From Anaerolineae bacterium (GTDB lineage: Bacteria > Chloroflexota > Anaerolineae > Aggregatilineales > Phototrophicaceae): DNA of 57,332 nucleotides. Positions 2,784 to 50,710 of this stretch are shown in pieces (the first letter of the stretch is position 1; every line of letters starts with the position of its first letter). Location of the stretch: NCBI GenBank assembly GCA_023382675.1, contig JAHDWN010000042.1, positions 1 through 57,332 of the forward strand. Reading direction: 5' to 3'. The translations under genes and the position numbers were made by a program. The notes beneath the pieces were generated by a model. The model saw only the letters and a list, made by a program, of their open reading frames with translations. It made no database searches and had not been told where the DNA came from.

Positions 2784-4577
2784 CTACCCATTCAGGCTGA
2801 CGAATGGGCTGACGGTGTAGCTGCCCTGCGGATCGGCGAGCGTGATCGGCTGCTTCATCCAGGGCTGGCCGTCGCAGCGCATCCCGAAGCGCCAGGTGTC
2901 CTTGCCTTCGGCGAAGGCGGCGTGCTCGCTGAACTCGACGTAGAGACCGCCCTTCTCGAACAGGACGTAGGCGCCCAGATCGACCAGCGCGACCGAGCCA
3001 TCGTGATCCGGCTGCGGCAGGTGTTCGCTCGCCAGCAGCGGGTGGCCGAGCAGCGCCATGGTCATCCCGGCGCTCAGGTTGTTGACGAGCACCGCGCCGC
3101 CCGTGCCGATCTCGAACTGGGCGATGTCGTTGATCATGCCGGGATGATAGACCCAGGCGGGCGCGCCGCCGACGGACTTGAAGCGCGAGACCATCTCGAC
3201 CGCGTCCGGATAGGCGAAGACGCCGCTGCTATCCGGGTTGAGGCTGATGAGCGCGGGCGCGTTGAGAATGCCGAGCGGCTCGCCCGCCCCGCTGCCGCGC
3301 AGGATGTAGTATTCAAGCTTGCTGGCGACGGCGACGCCAATGACGTTGCGCAGGAAGGCTTCGATCCCGGCGATGCTGTCCGCGCGCAGTTCCTTGGTGA
3401 CTTTGACCATGCCGCTGGCCGCGTCGGTGATGCGGTAGCGGATCATCTCGAACTGCGGCTCGGTCTCGGTGTAGGCCGCGCCCTCCACGCGCTTGCTGGC
3501 TTTTGCGCCGCCGGCCTGGGCCGTGTTGCCGCCCCCCGCGACCGGCGTCAGATACTGATCGAGCGCCGGATATTCACCGACGGGCGCGCTGACCGGAATG
3601 CGCCGCACCCGCGCCAGCACCGGCGAACTGCCCGCCGCGATCTGCAAAAGCTGAGCGCTGAACTCGGTCGGAACGGTGTAGCCGCCCGCGACGCCGGTAT
3701 CGGTTGCCAGCGCCTTGGTGCTCTTGTAGACGCTGCGCAGGCGCGCATCATCGCCGCGCACGAGCGCCAGCAGCCAGTCGCCGAACGACTTGACGTGGCG
3801 ATCCGCCGTGCCGCCATCGACGGTGAAATAGCCCGCGCCTTTGAGGCTGGGCGCGTCTTCGATGTATTGGAGCACGCGGCTGAGTTGTTCGCCGACGCCG
3901 GACATCTGCGTCTTGAGCGCGGCGAGTTCATCCGGCTGGGTCTGCGCTTGTTCGGGCATGGGGGTCTCTTTCTGGTGATGAGTAACGGGTGATGCGTGAT
4001 GAGTAAAGAGTTGATGAGGTGATGAGGCGCGAAGCACGCGTGCGGCTCGCTGCATTCGAACGGTTGGCTGCTGGTGTGCGTTGCTATCCTCCATTCGCTC
4101 GGCGGTGAGCGATTTGAGCGGGACGACGCGGGCGCGCGGCTCTGCGGGCGCAGGCGTCAGCGAAGCCTCGGCAATCGTCCAGCGGGTGATGCGCTGCGCC
4201 TGGCCTGCGGGCTGACGCTCGACCAGGTGCGCCGCCGCGCCACTCGACCAGCCGAGTCGCCCCTGCTGCGCCAGGTCATAGACGGCACGCTCGTAATCAT
4301 CGCGCAGGTCGAGCTGCGCCTCCAGCCAGACGCCAACATCGTCATGGCGCAGCGCCCCACGCCCGATGCGCCGCTTCTTGAGCACGGGGTCAAGACCATG
4401 CAGATAGTAAACACCGACCTGGTGGCCGTCCTCGAAGTCGAAGTCGGTCTGCGGCGTGAAGAACTCACCTTCCAGGTCGGGATGCTCGGCGTCGCCATAG
4501 ACGACGAGGTAGCCGCCGAGCCGCCCATCGGCCAGGGCTTTGATCGCCCCGCCGTAGGCGATGAGTGTATCTTTCAT
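2784..4577 (-). CDS. Prohead protease fused in frame to HK97-fold major capsid protein
   Basis: One uninterrupted frame encodes 597 residues from the ATG at 4577, chosen because AGGAG stands 6 bases upstream. Residues about 1-170 are an HK97-type prohead protease (peptidase U35 style): the histidine in VYYLHGLDP and the serine in GWSSG fit its catalytic pair. Residues about 225-597 are an HK97-fold major capsid protein with the typical N-terminal helical delta-like region, GGYTVPTEFSAQLLQ and a long beta-rich body. The join (about 180-207) is encoded by a degenerate repeat of TGATGAGT-type words. An internal ATG at 3959 (MPEQAQTQ) with a weak A/G-rich upstream stretch could yield free capsid protein. 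In most relatives the two genes are separate. Confidence 0.85.
   Translation of the reverse strand: MKDTLIAYGGAIKALADGRLGGYLVVYGDAEHPDLEGEFFTPQTDFDFEDGHQVGVYYLHGLDPVLKKRRIGRGALRHDDVGVWLEAQLDLRDDYERAVYDLAQQGRLGWSSGAAAHLVERQPAGQAQRITRWTIAEASLTPAPAEPRARVVPLKSLTAERMEDSNAHQQPTVRMQRAARVLRASSPHQLFTHHASPVTHHQKETPMPEQAQTQPDELAALKTQMSGVGEQLSRVLQYIEDAPSLKGAGYFTVDGGTADRHVKSFGDWLLALVRGDDARLRSVYKSTKALATDTGVAGGYTVPTEFSAQLLQIAAGSSPVLARVRRIPVSAPVGEYPALDQYLTPVAGGGNTAQAGGAKASKRVEGAAYTETEPQFEMIRYRITDAASGMVKVTKELRADSIAGIEAFLRNVIGVAVASKLEYYILRGSGAGEPLGILNAPALISLNPDSSGVFAYPDAVEMVSRFKSVGGAPAWVYHPGMINDIAQFEIGTGGAVLVNNLSAGMTMALLGHPLLASEHLPQPDHDGSVALVDLGAYVLFEKGGLYVEFSEHAAFAEGKDTWRFGMRCDGQPWMKQPITLADPQGSYTVSPFVSLNG
3972..4028. 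repeat. TGATGAGTAACGGGTGATGC-type word repeat inside a reading frame
   Basis: GTGATGAGTAACGGGTGATG, GTGATGAGTAAAGAG, TTGATGAG and GTGATGAGG follow each other as imperfect tandem words. Read leftward the block encodes the His/Ser-rich linker of the protease-capsid fusion. The word differs from the two other families but shares the style of short imperfect tandem words at a gene border. Confidence 0.7.
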
Positions 4578-42773: not shown

Positions 42774-43370
42774 ATGTCTACGCCTGTCGAGCCAACCTAC
42801 TTCGCCACCTCCGTCGCCTTCCGCGCCTGGCTGGAGGCGAATCACGACAGCGCCAATGAACTCTGGGTCGGCTTCTACAAGAAAGGGTCAGGCATCCCCA
42901 GCATCACCTACCCGGAAGCGGTCGATCAGGCGCTGTGTTTCGGCTGGATCGATGGCATCCGCAAGAGCTACGACGCCATCAGCTATATGAACCGCTTCAC
43001 GCCGCGCCGGGCGCGCAGTACCTGGAGCGCCGTCAACATCAAGCGCGTCGGCGAACTGGAAGCGCAGGGCTTGATGCACCCCGCAGGCTTGAAGGCCTTC
43101 GCCGTCCGCACGGACGACAATTCCGCCATTTATGCCTACGAGCAAAGACATAACGCCCAGCTCGACGCCGCCTTTGAAGCCCAGCTTCAGGCGAACGCAG
43201 CCGCCTGGGCCTTCTTCCAGACGCAGCCACCCTCGTACCGGCGCGCAGCTATCCACTGGGTGATGAGCGCCAAGCAGGAAGCCACGCGACACAAACGGCT
43301 GGCACAGCTAATCGAGGATTCCGCCAACGGGCGCACCGTGCCCCCGCTGACGCGCAGAACGCGCAACTGA
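42774..43370 (+). CDS. YdeI/OmpD-associated family protein
   Basis: A 198-residue soluble protein. FRAWLEANHDSANELWVGFYK, ITYPEAVDQALCFGWIDGIR, RFTPRRARSTWSAVNIKRV and a C-terminal helical part are the hallmarks of the YdeI-like/OmpD-associated family, whose biochemical role is not well established. It follows the MFS transporter by nine bases with AGGTG as ribosome site. Confidence 0.88.
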   Translation: MSTPVEPTYFATSVAFRAWLEANHDSANELWVGFYKKGSGIPSITYPEAVDQALCFGWIDGIRKSYDAISYMNRFTPRRARSTWSAVNIKRVGELEAQGLMHPAGLKAFAVRTDDNSAIYAYEQRHNAQLDAAFEAQLQANAAAWAFFQTQPPSYRRAAIHWVMSAKQEATRHKRLAQLIEDSANGRTVPPLTRRTRN

Positions 43371-43447
43371 GCGTGACGTACACATCCAGATGCGCGTGGG
43401 AGCCCGGCAATCAGCCCGAATCGCGCCGGTCTGCCCGCAAATGGGTG

Positions 43448-43562
43448 TATGATCAGGCTGAGTATGCAAGACAGCATACCGGTGACGAGGGTTACAAATA
43501 ACCTTCAGCCTTCACCGCAGTTGTAAGCCTCGTTGCTTATCCCAGGGCACGGCCCGGGATAA
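43448..43562 (+). ncRNA. Candidate three-hairpin leader RNA of the FBP aldolase/phosphatase gene
   Basis: A TATGAT (43448-43453) would start transcription near 43460. Then come three consecutive hairpins: P1 GTATGC/GCATAC (43462-43479, 6 bp, 6-base loop); P2 ACGAGG-G-TTACAA with TTGTAA-G-CCTCGT (43485-43497 and 43521-43533, 12 pairs around one G-G mismatch, 23-base loop); P3 TTATCCC-A-GGGC / GCCC-GGGATAA (43537-43562, 11 pairs, one bulged A, 3-base loop). Spacers are 5 and 3 bases. No T run follows, so it is not a simple terminator. I do not recognise a known riboswitch class. Confidence 0.5.
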
Positions 43563-43648
43563 ACAAGCTTCTCCTCCACTGCCTCAGACCGGACGTGTCC
43601 CTTGTAGGGTTCACTCGCTCAAAAGGTCGTATGAAAGGCAGTGAGACC

Positions 43649-44794
43649 ATGGCAAGCAAAGTAACTCTAAGTCTGATCAAAGCGGATGTCGGCGGCTATG
43701 TCGGCCATGCCCGTATGCACCCGGATCTGATGGCCGAAGCCGCCAGGGCTCTGGAAAAGCACACGCACGCAGGCACGCTGATCGACTTCCGGGTCCTGGC
43801 TTGTGGTGATGATGTCGGCCTGCTCATGTCCCACGATCAGGGGAACGATAGCAACAAGATTCACCAACTGGCCTGGAACGTATTCGAAGACTGCACAGAA
43901 GTTGCCCGGAAGTTGAAGCTCTACGGAGCCGGTCAGGATCTGCTCGCCGACGCCTTTTCCGGCAACATCCGCGGCATGGGGCCGGGCGTCGCCGAGATGA
44001 CGTTTCTTGAGCGCAAGTCCGAGCCTTTCCTGGTTTTCTTCGCCGACAAGACGAGCGCCGGCGCCTGGAACCTGCCGCTGTTCCGGATGTTTGCCGATCC
44101 GTTCAACACCATCGGGCTGGTGATATCCCCGGCGATGCACGAGGGCTACCGCTTCGAAGTCTATGATGTCAAAGGCAATCGCAAGATCGTCCTGGATACA
44201 CCGGAGCAGATGTACGATCTGCTGGTGTTCATCGGTGCGCCCGGTCGCTACATGGTGCGCAACGTCTACACCAAGTCGGGCGAGATCGCGGCGACATCGT
44301 CGACCGAGCGCCTGGCGCTGATCGCCGGACGCTATGTCGGCAAGGACGATCCGGTCTGCATCGTGCGCTCGCAATCGGAGTTTCCGGCGGTGGGCGAGGT
44401 GCTGGAGCCGTTCACGATGCCGCATATTGTCGAGGGCTGGATGCGCGGTTCGCATTACGGGCCGCTCATGCCCTGCCGGGTATCCGAGGCCCATCCCAGC
44501 CGTTTTGATGGCCCGCCGCGCGTGATCGGTCTCGGCTTCCAACTCGCCAATGGTAAGTTGGTCGGCCCGCAGGACATGTTTGACGATCCGTCGTTCGATG
44601 AGTCGCGGCGGCTCTGCAACGTCATCGCCGATCATCTCCGCCGTCACGGTCCGTTCGAGCCGCACCGGCTGCCGATGGAAGAAATGGAATACACCACACT
44701 GCCGCAGGTCATGGCCAAGCTCGAAGATCAGTGGCAGTCACTGGATGGACACAAAACGGACAAGACGAAAGAGAAGCGGGTCGCGGCGCATTAG
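43649..44794 (+). CDS. fbp: Bifunctional fructose-1,6-bisphosphate aldolase/phosphatase
   Basis: A 381-residue enzyme of the archaeal-type (class V) FBPase family, which condenses triose phosphates to fructose bisphosphate and removes the 1-phosphate in gluconeogenesis. VTLSLIKADVGGYVGHARMH, DFRVLACGDDVGLLMSHDQG, DLLADAFSGNIRGMGPGVAE and RNVYTKSGEIAATSSTERLA are near-invariant blocks, containing Mg-binding Asp residues and the catalytic Lys/Tyr region. The ATG at 43649 matches the usual N terminus; 43631 would add six residues. Behind the structured leader. Typical of thermophilic archaea and deep-branching bacteria, including Chloroflexota. Confidence 0.95.
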   Translation: MASKVTLSLIKADVGGYVGHARMHPDLMAEAARALEKHTHAGTLIDFRVLACGDDVGLLMSHDQGNDSNKIHQLAWNVFEDCTEVARKLKLYGAGQDLLADAFSGNIRGMGPGVAEMTFLERKSEPFLVFFADKTSAGAWNLPLFRMFADPFNTIGLVISPAMHEGYRFEVYDVKGNRKIVLDTPEQMYDLLVFIGAPGRYMVRNVYTKSGEIAATSSTERLALIAGRYVGKDDPVCIVRSQSEFPAVGEVLEPFTMPHIVEGWMRGSHYGPLMPCRVSEAHPSRFDGPPRVIGLGFQLANGKLVGPQDMFDDPSFDESRRLCNVIADHLRRHGPFEPHRLPMEEMEYTTLPQVMAKLEDQWQSLDGHKTDKTKEKRVAAH

Positions 44795-44838
44795 GCTGCT
44801 GGACAGCCAACTATCGAGCGACTGTTTTGCCGGAGGTT

Positions 44839-44858
44839 GGGGCGACGATTGCCGCCCC
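44839..44858. terminator. GC hairpin after the FBP gene
   Basis: GGGGCG and CGCCCC form a stem around ACGATTGC, with CCGG arms further out. It lies between convergent genes, 45 bases after the FBP stop. No T run, so function is uncertain. Confidence 0.35.
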
Positions 44859-44890
44859 AGTAGCCGGTTTGCAGGTGAGCAGCATGAACT

Positions 44891-45295
44891 TCAATGAAGC
44901 CGCTCGGGGCGATCAACCAACGTGCCGTCGATATAAGCCTGTACCGCGGCTTCAGCGTCTTTGAATTCGGTCAGGATGGGCCGGATGTTCGCCTGTTGAA
45001 TAGCGACGTAAGCCCCGCGCCCCATGCCGCGCGCGATGACGACCTGACAATCCCGCACGGGGTCAAGCATCTGTGTGTGTTTGTCCGCCGAATGCGCACC
45101 CAGCCCATGCCCGTGTTCGTGATCATGGTCATGATGTTCGGGTTCGATCTGCACGAACTGTTGATGCCCGGCCTTGTCCCGTTGTTCTTTGCCGACGATT
45201 TTGCCATCTTCGACGGTGAAGACGAGATAATACGGCGCGCGACCAAAATGACTGCTGATGGTCGTGCCGCTGTCGATGACTACAGCAATTTTCAT
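44891..45295 (-). CDS. NifX/NifB-like (dinitrogenase cofactor-domain) protein with His-rich insert
   Basis: A 134-residue protein from the ATG at 45295. KIAVVIDSGTTISSHFGRAP and ARGMGRGAYVAIQQANIRPI are the Nitro_FeMo-Co domain core, a ribonuclease-H-like fold that binds metal clusters. A histidine-rich insert (EPEHHDHDHEHGHGLGAHSA, about 52-71) suggests zinc, nickel or iron binding. No nitrogenase gene is in the window, so it likely has a metal-handling role. The P-type ATPase gene lies 140 bases upstream in the same direction. Confidence 0.85.
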   Translation of the reverse strand: MKIAVVIDSGTTISSHFGRAPYYLVFTVEDGKIVGKEQRDKAGHQQFVQIEPEHHDHDHEHGHGLGAHSADKHTQMLDPVRDCQVVIARGMGRGAYVAIQQANIRPILTEFKDAEAAVQAYIDGTLVDRPERLH

Positions 45296-45435
45296 TGCCT
45301 GTTTCCCTTCATAAACTGATTCATGGATAAGACGGGGCAAGGCACTTGTCCTTGCCCAGGCCATGGTCGCAGCGATAGCGCGCTTGCGCAAGAGCAGCTT
45401 ATCGCTGAGCAGCAGCAATCAGGCCCAAAGCCGGA

Positions 45436-47961
45436 TCAATCGCTTGCATGTCTGCGATGGCTGATCGCTTTGCCAATCTCGACAAACACCAGGAGCATGA
45501 GCGCCATCCCGACAACGTAGAGCCATTCTTCCAGAGTCAAGGGCACAATCCCGAGCAGATCGCGCAGGCCAGGGATGACGAAGGCCACCGCGATTGTCAG
45601 CAAGCCGAGCACAACCGTGCCGATGAGGGGTTTGTTGGCAGTCAGCTTGTTCATGCGGTAGATGGGCCGGCGCATACTCCGGTAAGCGAAGATATAGACG
45701 ATTGAGTTGAGCGCGAAACTGGCGAAAGCGATACTCCGTCCCTCGATCGGACTGTTATGGACCTGGAAGTAATGTCCAAACAGCGCCAGGACGAAAATCG
45801 CGCTGGTAATGCTGATCACGCCGATCAGCGACAATGCCAGAGGCGTGAGCACCGACGCTTTCAACGACCGGGGCTTTCTGTTCATGATGTCATCTTCTTT
45901 TGGCTCAAAGCCCAGCACGATATCCAGCGGGCCGTCACAGATCAGGTGGATCCAGAGGATCTGCGCGACCACCAGCGGCGCCGGCCAGCGGAGCATCATC
46001 GCCACAAAGATAGTCAGCACCTCGGCAAACGAGTTCGAGAGGGTGTAGGCAACCACTTTACGGATGTTGTCGAAGATGATACGACCTTCCTCGACCGCAG
46101 CGACGATGGTGCGGAAGTTGCTGTCGAGCAAGATCAAGTCGGCCGTTTCTTTAGCCACGTCGGTGGCACTTCCTACCACCACGCCGATATTGGCACGCTT
46201 GAGCGCCGGGGCATCATTGACACCATCCCCAATCATAGCCGCGATCTCACCGTTGGTCTGCAAGGCGCGGACAATGCGGAACTTGTCCTGCGGGCGGATG
46301 CGGGCGAATACCGCTGTCTTCTTCACGCATTCCTGAAGCTGGTCATCGGTCAGCCCGGCAATCTGCGCACCTTCCAGGGTCTGGTCGCCGTCTTTCATCA
46401 AGCCGATATTGGAGGCTATCTTCTCCGCGGTGCGCCGGTAGTCGCCGGTGATCATCTTGACCTGGATGCCCGCATGCTGGGCAACCTGGATCGCCGCTGG
46501 CACACCTTCGCGCACCGGGTCTTCCATACCGAGCAGCCCAACCCAGGTGTAGCCGGTATAATTATTCATCTCCCCATCGCGGCGGTAAGCCAGCCCCAGA
46601 AGCCGAAGCCCTTCTCCAGCCCATTCATCTGCCTGGGTCAGGTAACGGCTCTGATCCTCGGCTGTCACAGCGCACATCTTCAGGACGATCTCCGGCGCTC
46701 CCTTCAAAAAGTAGTAGAGCGCTCCCTGGAACTGATTGCTCGTTACTTCGGTGATCATGTATTTCGTTTCACTGGTGAACATTTCCTCGGCCAGCCGCTG
46801 CGAGCTATCGAGCAGGTCCTGGGGGTTCGCCGTCATCTGCTTCTCGGCGTATTCCCACAAGGCAATGTCCACCGGGCCTTCCAGATTGTTGCACAACACC
46901 ATAATCTGATAGGCGCGCTCCTCATCGAGGAGTTCGGCGTGGTTCACCCGCATCCGCCCCTCGGTGAGTGTGCCGGTCTTGTCGGTGCAGATCACCGTCA
47001 CCGAACCGAGCGTTTCGACTGCGAGCAGCTTTTTCACCAGGCCGTTGCGCTTGAGGATCTTGCGCATACCCAGCACCAGAATCACCGTCACGGCGATCAG
47101 CAGACCTTCAGGCACCGCCGCAATGGCCAGGATGATCGAGTTGCGGAGCATATCGAAGAACTCGCGGCCCATGGCCAACCCAACGAGCAGGATCACCACC
47201 GTGGCGGCCACCACGATATAGGTAAGGATCTTGCTGAAAGCCTTGAGTCGCACCTGGAGGGGCGTATCTTCTTCGACATGTTCGCTCAGGCTGGCCGCAA
47301 TTTGTCCCAGTTCGGTATGCGTGCCGGTTTTGGTGACACGTAAGATGCCCCGGCCGGTAACGACCGTTGTCCCCATGAAGACGCGTGTCCGCGAGTTAGC
47401 CGCGTCATTCGGCAAGCTTCCGTTTGCCTGACTGATGGACTGTTTGTTGACTGGCTCGCTCTCACCCGTAAGGATGGATTCATCAACAGCCAGTCTGGTC
47501 GTCTCAACCAGCTCGCCGTCGGCAGGGATCTTCTCACCGGAATTGAGCACCACCAGGTCGTCTGGCACCAATTCCCAGACTTCCACTTCCAGCCGCTGCC
47601 CGTCGCGCATGACCGAGGTGGTTGGCCTGAGCAGGCTTTTGAGGGAAGCATAGGTGCGCTGCGCCTGGTATTCCTGAACAAATCCCAGGAACACATCGAT
47701 CACAACCACCACGATGATGATCGCGAAGTCGCCCATCTCACCCAGCGCCAGTGAGACCCCAGCGGCGGCCAGGATGATGTAGATCAGCGGACTCTTGAAC
47801 TGATTGAGCACAATCTTCCAGGCCGAAACACCTTTTTCGGCTGGCAGACGATTTTCGCCAAATTGCGCACGGCGCTTCAGGACCTCGTCGGGGCCCAAGC
47901 CAGTGAGCGCCTCATGTTTATGCGCTATTTCTGCACCCTGTGTCAACGCCGAGGTATTCAT
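45436..47961 (-). CDS. P-type cation-transporting ATPase (P2-like)
   Basis: An 841-residue ATPase with ten predicted membrane helices. LTGESEP is the actuator loop, ICTDKTGTLTEG the phosphorylation site, MIGDGVNDAPALKRANIG the hinge, and AAVPEGLLIAVTVIL the M4 ion-site motif. The M6 motif is LWIHLICDGPLDIVLGFEP: the usual Asn of LWxNLxTD is His while the Asp is kept, so ion preference may differ from Ca2+ pumps. N- and C-terminal P2-type domains are present. It likely acts with the His-rich protein downstream; ion unknown. Confidence 0.92.
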   Translation of the reverse strand: MNTSALTQGAEIAHKHEALTGLGPDEVLKRRAQFGENRLPAEKGVSAWKIVLNQFKSPLIYIILAAAGVSLALGEMGDFAIIIVVVVIDVFLGFVQEYQAQRTYASLKSLLRPTTSVMRDGQRLEVEVWELVPDDLVVLNSGEKIPADGELVETTRLAVDESILTGESEPVNKQSISQANGSLPNDAANSRTRVFMGTTVVTGRGILRVTKTGTHTELGQIAASLSEHVEEDTPLQVRLKAFSKILTYIVVAATVVILLVGLAMGREFFDMLRNSIILAIAAVPEGLLIAVTVILVLGMRKILKRNGLVKKLLAVETLGSVTVICTDKTGTLTEGRMRVNHAELLDEERAYQIMVLCNNLEGPVDIALWEYAEKQMTANPQDLLDSSQRLAEEMFTSETKYMITEVTSNQFQGALYYFLKGAPEIVLKMCAVTAEDQSRYLTQADEWAGEGLRLLGLAYRRDGEMNNYTGYTWVGLLGMEDPVREGVPAAIQVAQHAGIQVKMITGDYRRTAEKIASNIGLMKDGDQTLEGAQIAGLTDDQLQECVKKTAVFARIRPQDKFRIVRALQTNGEIAAMIGDGVNDAPALKRANIGVVVGSATDVAKETADLILLDSNFRTIVAAVEEGRIIFDNIRKVVAYTLSNSFAEVLTIFVAMMLRWPAPLVVAQILWIHLICDGPLDIVLGFEPKEDDIMNRKPRSLKASVLTPLALSLIGVISITSAIFVLALFGHYFQVHNSPIEGRSIAFASFALNSIVYIFAYRSMRRPIYRMNKLTANKPLIGTVVLGLLTIAVAFVIPGLRDLLGIVPLTLEEWLYVVGMALMLLVFVEIGKAISHRRHASD

Positions 47962-50344: not shown

Positions 50345-50710
50345 CTTGCGACCCGCTTTCAGATACGGGCAAAGACCCGCACGAACAAAGTGCAAGCGTA
50401 TGGCTTCATCTTAGGATCAGTGGGTCAAACGTTGGTCATAGCGGCATGGTGATGGATGTCACCAGCGGCGGCGGTGCCGATCGACAATATTTCGCGAGCC
50501 ATCGATCATGACCGCGTCAGAATCAGCGGGTTATAGAAACTCAATTTGAACCGCAAAGTCTCAAAGGACGCAAAGAATAAGCGTGAACAGCCGTCTTTCC
50601 GGCGGGTCAGAGCGGGTGTCAGCCCGCTTCCCGCCGGAAAAGCTAGCCGGGCGGCTTCCAGCCCCCGGCGATCGCTGCTCGTTTTGCCAGTACGCTATAT
50701 ACTCTGCGTC
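50345..50710. repeat. Gap with a long hairpin and CGCAAAG words
   Basis: 366 bases without a gene. 50552-50581 contains ACCGCAAAGTCTCAAAGGAC and GCAAAG words, a type of repeat often found between genes in Chloroflexota and cyanobacteria. 50596-50606 (TTTCCGGCGGG) pairs perfectly with 50630-50640, with inner AGCGGG/CCCGCT arms. A TATATACTC near 50696 may be the -10 box of the MenH-like gene. Confidence 0.6.

Follow-up and report, generated by a model that had tools for sequence, protein, structure and literature searches.

The window, the whole stretch of 57,332 nucleotides analysed here, carries three hairpins packed closely together before a gene for FBP aldolase/phosphatase (FBPase), and the question raised by this locus is whether the hairpins form an RNA leader that controls the gene. 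A preliminary description had proposed that they do, perhaps by sensing a metabolite. The gene to which it assigned the leader is a genuine, full FBPase gene, as judged by its matches to NF041126 and PF01950 (Table 1). Its start at 43649 was chosen by comparison with the starts of relatives, other in-frame starts being the ATG at 43631 and the GTG at 43595. The hairpins are intergenic and lie directly 5' of the FBPase gene on the same strand, P1 beginning 92 bases past the end of an upstream gene for a protein with an OmdA/YdeI domain (the YdeI gene). The layout first reported for P1, P2 and P3, with its spacers of 5 and 3 bases and its details for P2 and P3, proved exact to the base. With G-U pairs P2 extends to 16 pairs (43481-43537), taking one base from P3. 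The statement that no T run stands behind P3 was likewise borne out, the bases read directly 3' of P3 being ACAAGC. A GC-rich hairpin lies just 3' of the FBPase gene (44838-44859), also with no T run directly behind it.

Table 1. Positions of the features discussed, in window coordinates.
Feature	Position	Strand	Description
Gene with OmdA/YdeI domain	42774..43370	+	PF13376; end of the segment conserved in G002
Presumed -10 box, TATGAT	43448..43453	+	Weak; -35 partner absent by eye; read directly
P1 hairpin	43462-43479	+	GTATGC-AAGACA-GCATAC; 6 perfect pairs, 6-base loop; read directly
Short open frame	43464..43526	+	MQDSIPVTRVTNNLQPSPQL; 20 codons; stop in the P2 3' arm
P1-P2 spacer	43480-43484	+	5 bases
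P2' alternative hairpin	43480..43517	+	CGGTGA/TCACCG and GAGGGTTA/TAACCTTC; excludes P2
P2 hairpin	43485-43497 with 43521-43533	+	ACGAGG-G-TTACAA / TTGTAA-G-CCTCGT; 12 Watson-Crick pairs around a G-G mismatch
P2 loop	43498-43520	+	23 bases
P2-P3 spacer	43534-43536	+	3 bases
P3 hairpin	43537-43562	+	TTATCCC-A-GGGC / ACG / GCCC-GGGATAA; 11 pairs, bulged A at 43544, ACG loop
P4, possible helix	43577..43643	+	CACTGCCT (43577-43584) with AGGCAGTG (43636-43643), over the ribosome-binding site
FBP aldolase/phosphatase gene	43649..44794	+	NF041126, 581.7 bits (cut-off 520); PF01950, 602.1 bits

The hairpin element exists, and it folds better than chance would give. On its own, 43460-43564 has P1, P2 and P3 as its minimum-energy structure at -42.3 kcal/mol (z -4.90), and none of 200 shuffles was as stable. 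Taken alone, P2 folds at -19.8 kcal/mol and P3 at -16.0 kcal/mol (z -4.23). Both strands of the whole window were then scanned in 1638 segments of 105 nt, spaced on a 70-base grid and compared with 30 shuffles each. Values of z at or below -4.5 occurred in 11 of the 1638, and the leader stood seventh on the + strand and third on the - strand, a rank that is favoured because the leader was placed in exact register and the others on the grid. No grid segment overlapping the leader is among the 15 top segments listed, and ten other high-ranking segments were, by eye, mostly terminators, simple hairpins or coding sequence. Elsewhere in the window, 50541-50680 holds a very strong hairpin, CCGGCGGG...CCCGCCGG, with z -5.4 on the + strand and -6.4 on the - strand. 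The opposite strand of the leader folds comparably to the + strand (z -4.99), so that folding alone cannot tell a working RNA from working DNA. Extending the folded stretch to 43460-43700 changes its minimum-energy structure to P1, P2', P3 and P4, with P2 absent; here z is only -1.82, and 9 of 200 shuffles were as stable.

Neither P2' nor P4 had been noticed in the preliminary description. In P2' the 5' arm of P2 pairs inside P2's own loop, and the two hairpins are mutually exclusive. Alone, P2' has a predicted energy of -15.0 kcal/mol (z -3.86; 0 of 200 shuffles), and over 43460-43564 the state with P2 is predicted at -42.1 kcal/mol versus -37.6 to -38.5 kcal/mol for that with P2'. When the 59 bases concerned were shuffled 5000 times, 8 shuffles produced a conflicting pair of hairpins; the thresholds applied were more lenient than what was observed and were set with the data already in view. 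The evidence for P4, a predicted helix, is weak: the P4 region alone gives z -0.81, and occlusion of the ribosome-binding site at the FBPase start is ordinary, ranking sixth among 30 gene starts in the window that were picked by the analyst from the frame list.

P1 had been described as starting two bases after the transcription start. We regard that claim as a guess, since the promoter scan was empty and the TATGAT at 43448 stands without a -35 partner. No consensus sigma-70-type promoter was found in 43300-43700, an absence that says little given that shuffles expect 0.1, and the absence of terminator-like sites from the same interval says little as well (0 found, 0.4 expected from shuffles). 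The presumed start would leave only about 4 bases 5' of the 20-codon open frame, so that its role as a leader peptide is doubtful; comparative support for the frame was nil.

A covariance search upstream of FBPase genes, the check proposed in the preliminary description, was run and returned no related leader in which pairing could be compared. The model (R1) was built from the window leader alone, and such a one-sequence model reaches near relatives only. R1 found the window leader itself at 133.7 bits. In 91 other loci, searched with the window as 92 sources and including some places twice, it found nothing at E <= 10, and its remaining scores were at most 13.5 bits and fell in the window itself. 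The source genome gave nothing convincing (next best 16.5 bits, E 3.7), and 153 other genomes of the order, searched with stricter filters, gave nothing at E <= 0.1. In 399 other genomes of the phylum, again under stricter filters and with at most nine candidates per genome scored in the matches listed, a single match appeared among those listed (24.5 bits; E 0.024 per genome, 400 searched). This match, in G428, was rejected as a relative of the leader, since a patatin-like frame runs over it on the opposite strand. Given the one-sequence model and the stricter filters used for order and phylum, distant structural kin may exist. For the FBPase genes, upstream regions were taken where the match began among residues 1-12, lay on the + strand and had 60 bases or more of the locus before it; 89 loci were kept, 83 of them distinct with the window's own counted once, and none of the 82 others resembles the leader, either by blastn and nhmmer of the source loci or by the covariance model. 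Because this result is an absence of homologues and not a finding of broken pairs, it leaves room for a species-specific RNA.

DNA searches agreed. There was no second copy of the leader in its own genome and no homologue in 154 genomes of the order or in plasmid and phage records, blastn and nhmmer of 108 loci returned short chance-level matches only, and viral contigs, scanned for a single exact pattern that represents both P2 arms, returned nothing. All short matches listed for the source genome and the order fall in 43401-43439, a GC-rich segment upstream of P1. These matches, in four other genomes of the order and at nine places in the source genome, were taken as chance; 11 of the 13 were read by eye and have unrelated flanks. 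A dispersed repeat or MITE was rejected, there being one copy in the source genome. An integron attC site was also rejected, as the boxes RYYYAAC and GTTRRRY, which we take to be its motifs, are absent from both strands of 43440-43600. Rfam release 15 gave no match at gathering thresholds anywhere in the window; in 43371-43700 the one weak match is H19_2 (10.9 bits, E 2.4), outside P1-P3. A literature search found no paper joining bisphosphate aldolase phosphatase with a riboswitch, and we claim absence from print no further than that search. In passages of PMC2864571 a Chloroflexi-1 motif is listed and no FBPase leader appears.

The neighbourhood of the leader bears on its origin. An MFS-YdeI segment shares 78% DNA identity with a genome of the same genus, G002, up to about 43358; the similarity breaks off some 12 bases short of the YdeI gene's end, and none reappears in the next 4.8 kb or so, where tblastx against G002 gave, among the matches listed, scattered pieces only. 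Since the similarity ends there, the leader and the FBPase gene begin at a synteny break, as judged against one genome. Of 41 near genomes, the source genome and one other have FBPase, as do 58 of 400 genomes of the phylum, a count that includes the source genome and some partial or distant matches. Also past the break with G002 are a gene for a protein with a dinitrogenase iron-molybdenum cofactor domain (44891-45418, - strand) and, adjoining it, one for a probable P-type ATPase (45436-47961, - strand), which was named from its sequence and whose next best match in the source genome is 39% identical.

What, then, are the hairpins? They might be inverted sequences left over at a rearrangement junction, either the remains of a small element or short inverted duplications, with no present function. 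The leader does sit between the end of the conserved MFS-YdeI segment and a patchily distributed gene, both strands fold equally, and by eye the P2 loop and 3' arm each resemble a diverged copy of the 5' arm's complement. Three separate, well-formed and undecayed hairpins are, however, much for debris, neither DNA nor model searches revealed a second copy in the source genome, plasmid and phage records held none, and the comparison across the junction is with G002 only. We think this origin unlikely, while placing it first among the competitors. Less probable again is that the hairpins simply stabilise the 5' end of the mRNA or act as spacers, with neither switching nor ligand. A stable P1 near the presumed 5' end, a stable P3 and the lack of a terminator match are all in keeping with such a role, but the exclusive folds P2 and P2' are neither needed nor explained by it, and the 5' end itself is predicted only.

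Lower still we place control at the DNA level, in which P1 (GTATGC-N6-GCATAC) and the ACGAGGNTTACAA pair would be transcription-factor operators around the transcription start. P1 is a perfect 6-6-6 palindrome just past the presumed -10 box, and like folding of the two strands is what palindromic DNA necessarily gives. When a single mismatch was tolerated, ACGAGGNTTACAA as a half-site matched 18 more positions of the source genome, versus 8 for a backward control; ten of these 18 were examined, and eight of the ten fall within open frames longer than 300 codons and so are probably inside genes. Exact searches of the source genome found GTATGCN6GCATAC once, and only two exact ACGAGGNTTACAA half-sites, the P2 arms themselves. 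An operator regulon is unlikely, and a single-target regulator binding these palindromes is possible. The least probable of these alternatives is that the structure belongs to some other + strand RNA, either as the 3' end or a processing site of the MFS-YdeI transcript or as a separate small RNA. The fold is strong and P1 starts 92 bases beyond the YdeI gene, but there is neither a T run nor a terminator match here, and hairpins with T runs are visible by eye elsewhere in the window.

Ahead of the junction remnants, the stabilising hairpins, the operators and the unrelated transcript end, we rank as most likely, if tentatively, a lineage-specific structured 5' untranslated leader of the FBPase mRNA that acts in cis on expression. 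Speaking for such a leader are a fold among the most extreme of the 1638 segments, the strength of the two exclusive hairpins, their intergenic place right before a genuine gene on the same strand, and the terminator-type hairpins upstream of FBPase genes in relatives; speaking against it are the lack of a homologue and of a promoter consensus, the like folding of the - strand, the modest z value once the gene start is included, and the unexceptional P4. We infer that the leader is transcribed, that the P2 and P2' states interconvert and that P4 matters. P1 and P3 would be stable flanking hairpins. The strand 43481-43497 would pair either with the loop behind it, as P2', or with the later strand 43521-43537, as P2; P2' would form first during RNA synthesis, and P2 is predicted to be the more stable in isolation. 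The choice between P2 and P2', together with P4 over the ribosome-binding site, could then set the frequency of translation or the lifetime of the mRNA.

From the original proposal, then, a strongly folded element directly 5' of a genuine FBPase gene stands, and metabolite sensing, having found no comparative support, is unsupported. We think it very improbable that the leader is an orphan RNA switch, confined to its lineage, which responds to a metabolite of glycolysis or gluconeogenesis and adjusts translation of the bifunctional FBPase through the choice between P2 and P2' and through P4. Should the leader prove to act on its gene, a key gluconeogenic enzyme of Chloroflexota would be under control at the RNA level; for now, the window leader is a lone candidate for which no relatives were found, and not a demonstrated RNA switch. 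With translation-controlling riboswitches it shares a 5' position, an alternative pairing and a possible helix over the ribosome-binding site. It differs from them in having no conserved aptamer, family or ligand and in being single-copy in what was searched; the searches found no related leader in which an aptamer with covarying pairs could be conserved. Its resemblance to transcription or leader-peptide attenuators lies in the exclusive P2 and P2' and in the short frame ending in the P2 3' arm. Unlike them, it has no intrinsic terminator between promoter and FBPase gene in 43300-43700, and the short frame would begin inside P1, about 4 bases past the presumed 5' end.

A better and more testable lead is offered by FBPase genes elsewhere in the phylum, several of which have terminator-type hairpins just upstream, two of these behind promoter-like sites. 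On these grounds, control of FBPase by its leader is plausible in the phylum. The closest FBPase relatives found are 71-77% identical. Among 26 distinct leaders of genes with at least 70% protein identity, six include a terminator-type hairpin within the 120 bases nearest the gene, versus 20 of 1040 shuffles; the 26 include several closely related species and so are not independent, and the control consists of shuffles, not of upstream regions of other genes. Three of the six come from related Roseiflexus-type genomes. In some cases the hairpin may end the preceding gene. The leaders L013, L082, L083, L084 and L148 are like that of the window in placing a structured region before the orthologous gene, but their sequences and structures are other, with a hairpin and T-rich run that the window lacks; by blastn, nhmmer and the covariance model no relative's FBPase leader is like the window leader in sequence.

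The Roseiflexus-type leaders look like a candidate transcription attenuator. L013, L014, L082 and L083 have a CACGCG...CGCGTG hairpin with a T-rich run behind it, about 60-130 bases before the FBPase start, that of L014 being the weakest and missing the threshold of the 26-leader count. In all four, CACGCG occurs both 5' and 3' of an invariant GCGCGTG, so that the GCGCGTG strand has two possible partners, the second of them, downstream, reading CACGCGC. An automatic consensus fold of the four picked the downstream CACGCG, and those seven pairs are invariant; over the whole fold, both sides change in 4 of 55 pairs. L084 is also a candidate attenuator: in its last 170 bases before the FBPase start, TTGCAT-17-TATAAT, promoter-like by eye, precedes a strong hairpin with a T run, after which comes the gene. 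In L148 (genome G027) the last 170 bases before position 3430 hold, again by eye, an extended -10-like TGCTATAGT followed, about 47 bases ahead of the FBPase start, by a hairpin with a T run.
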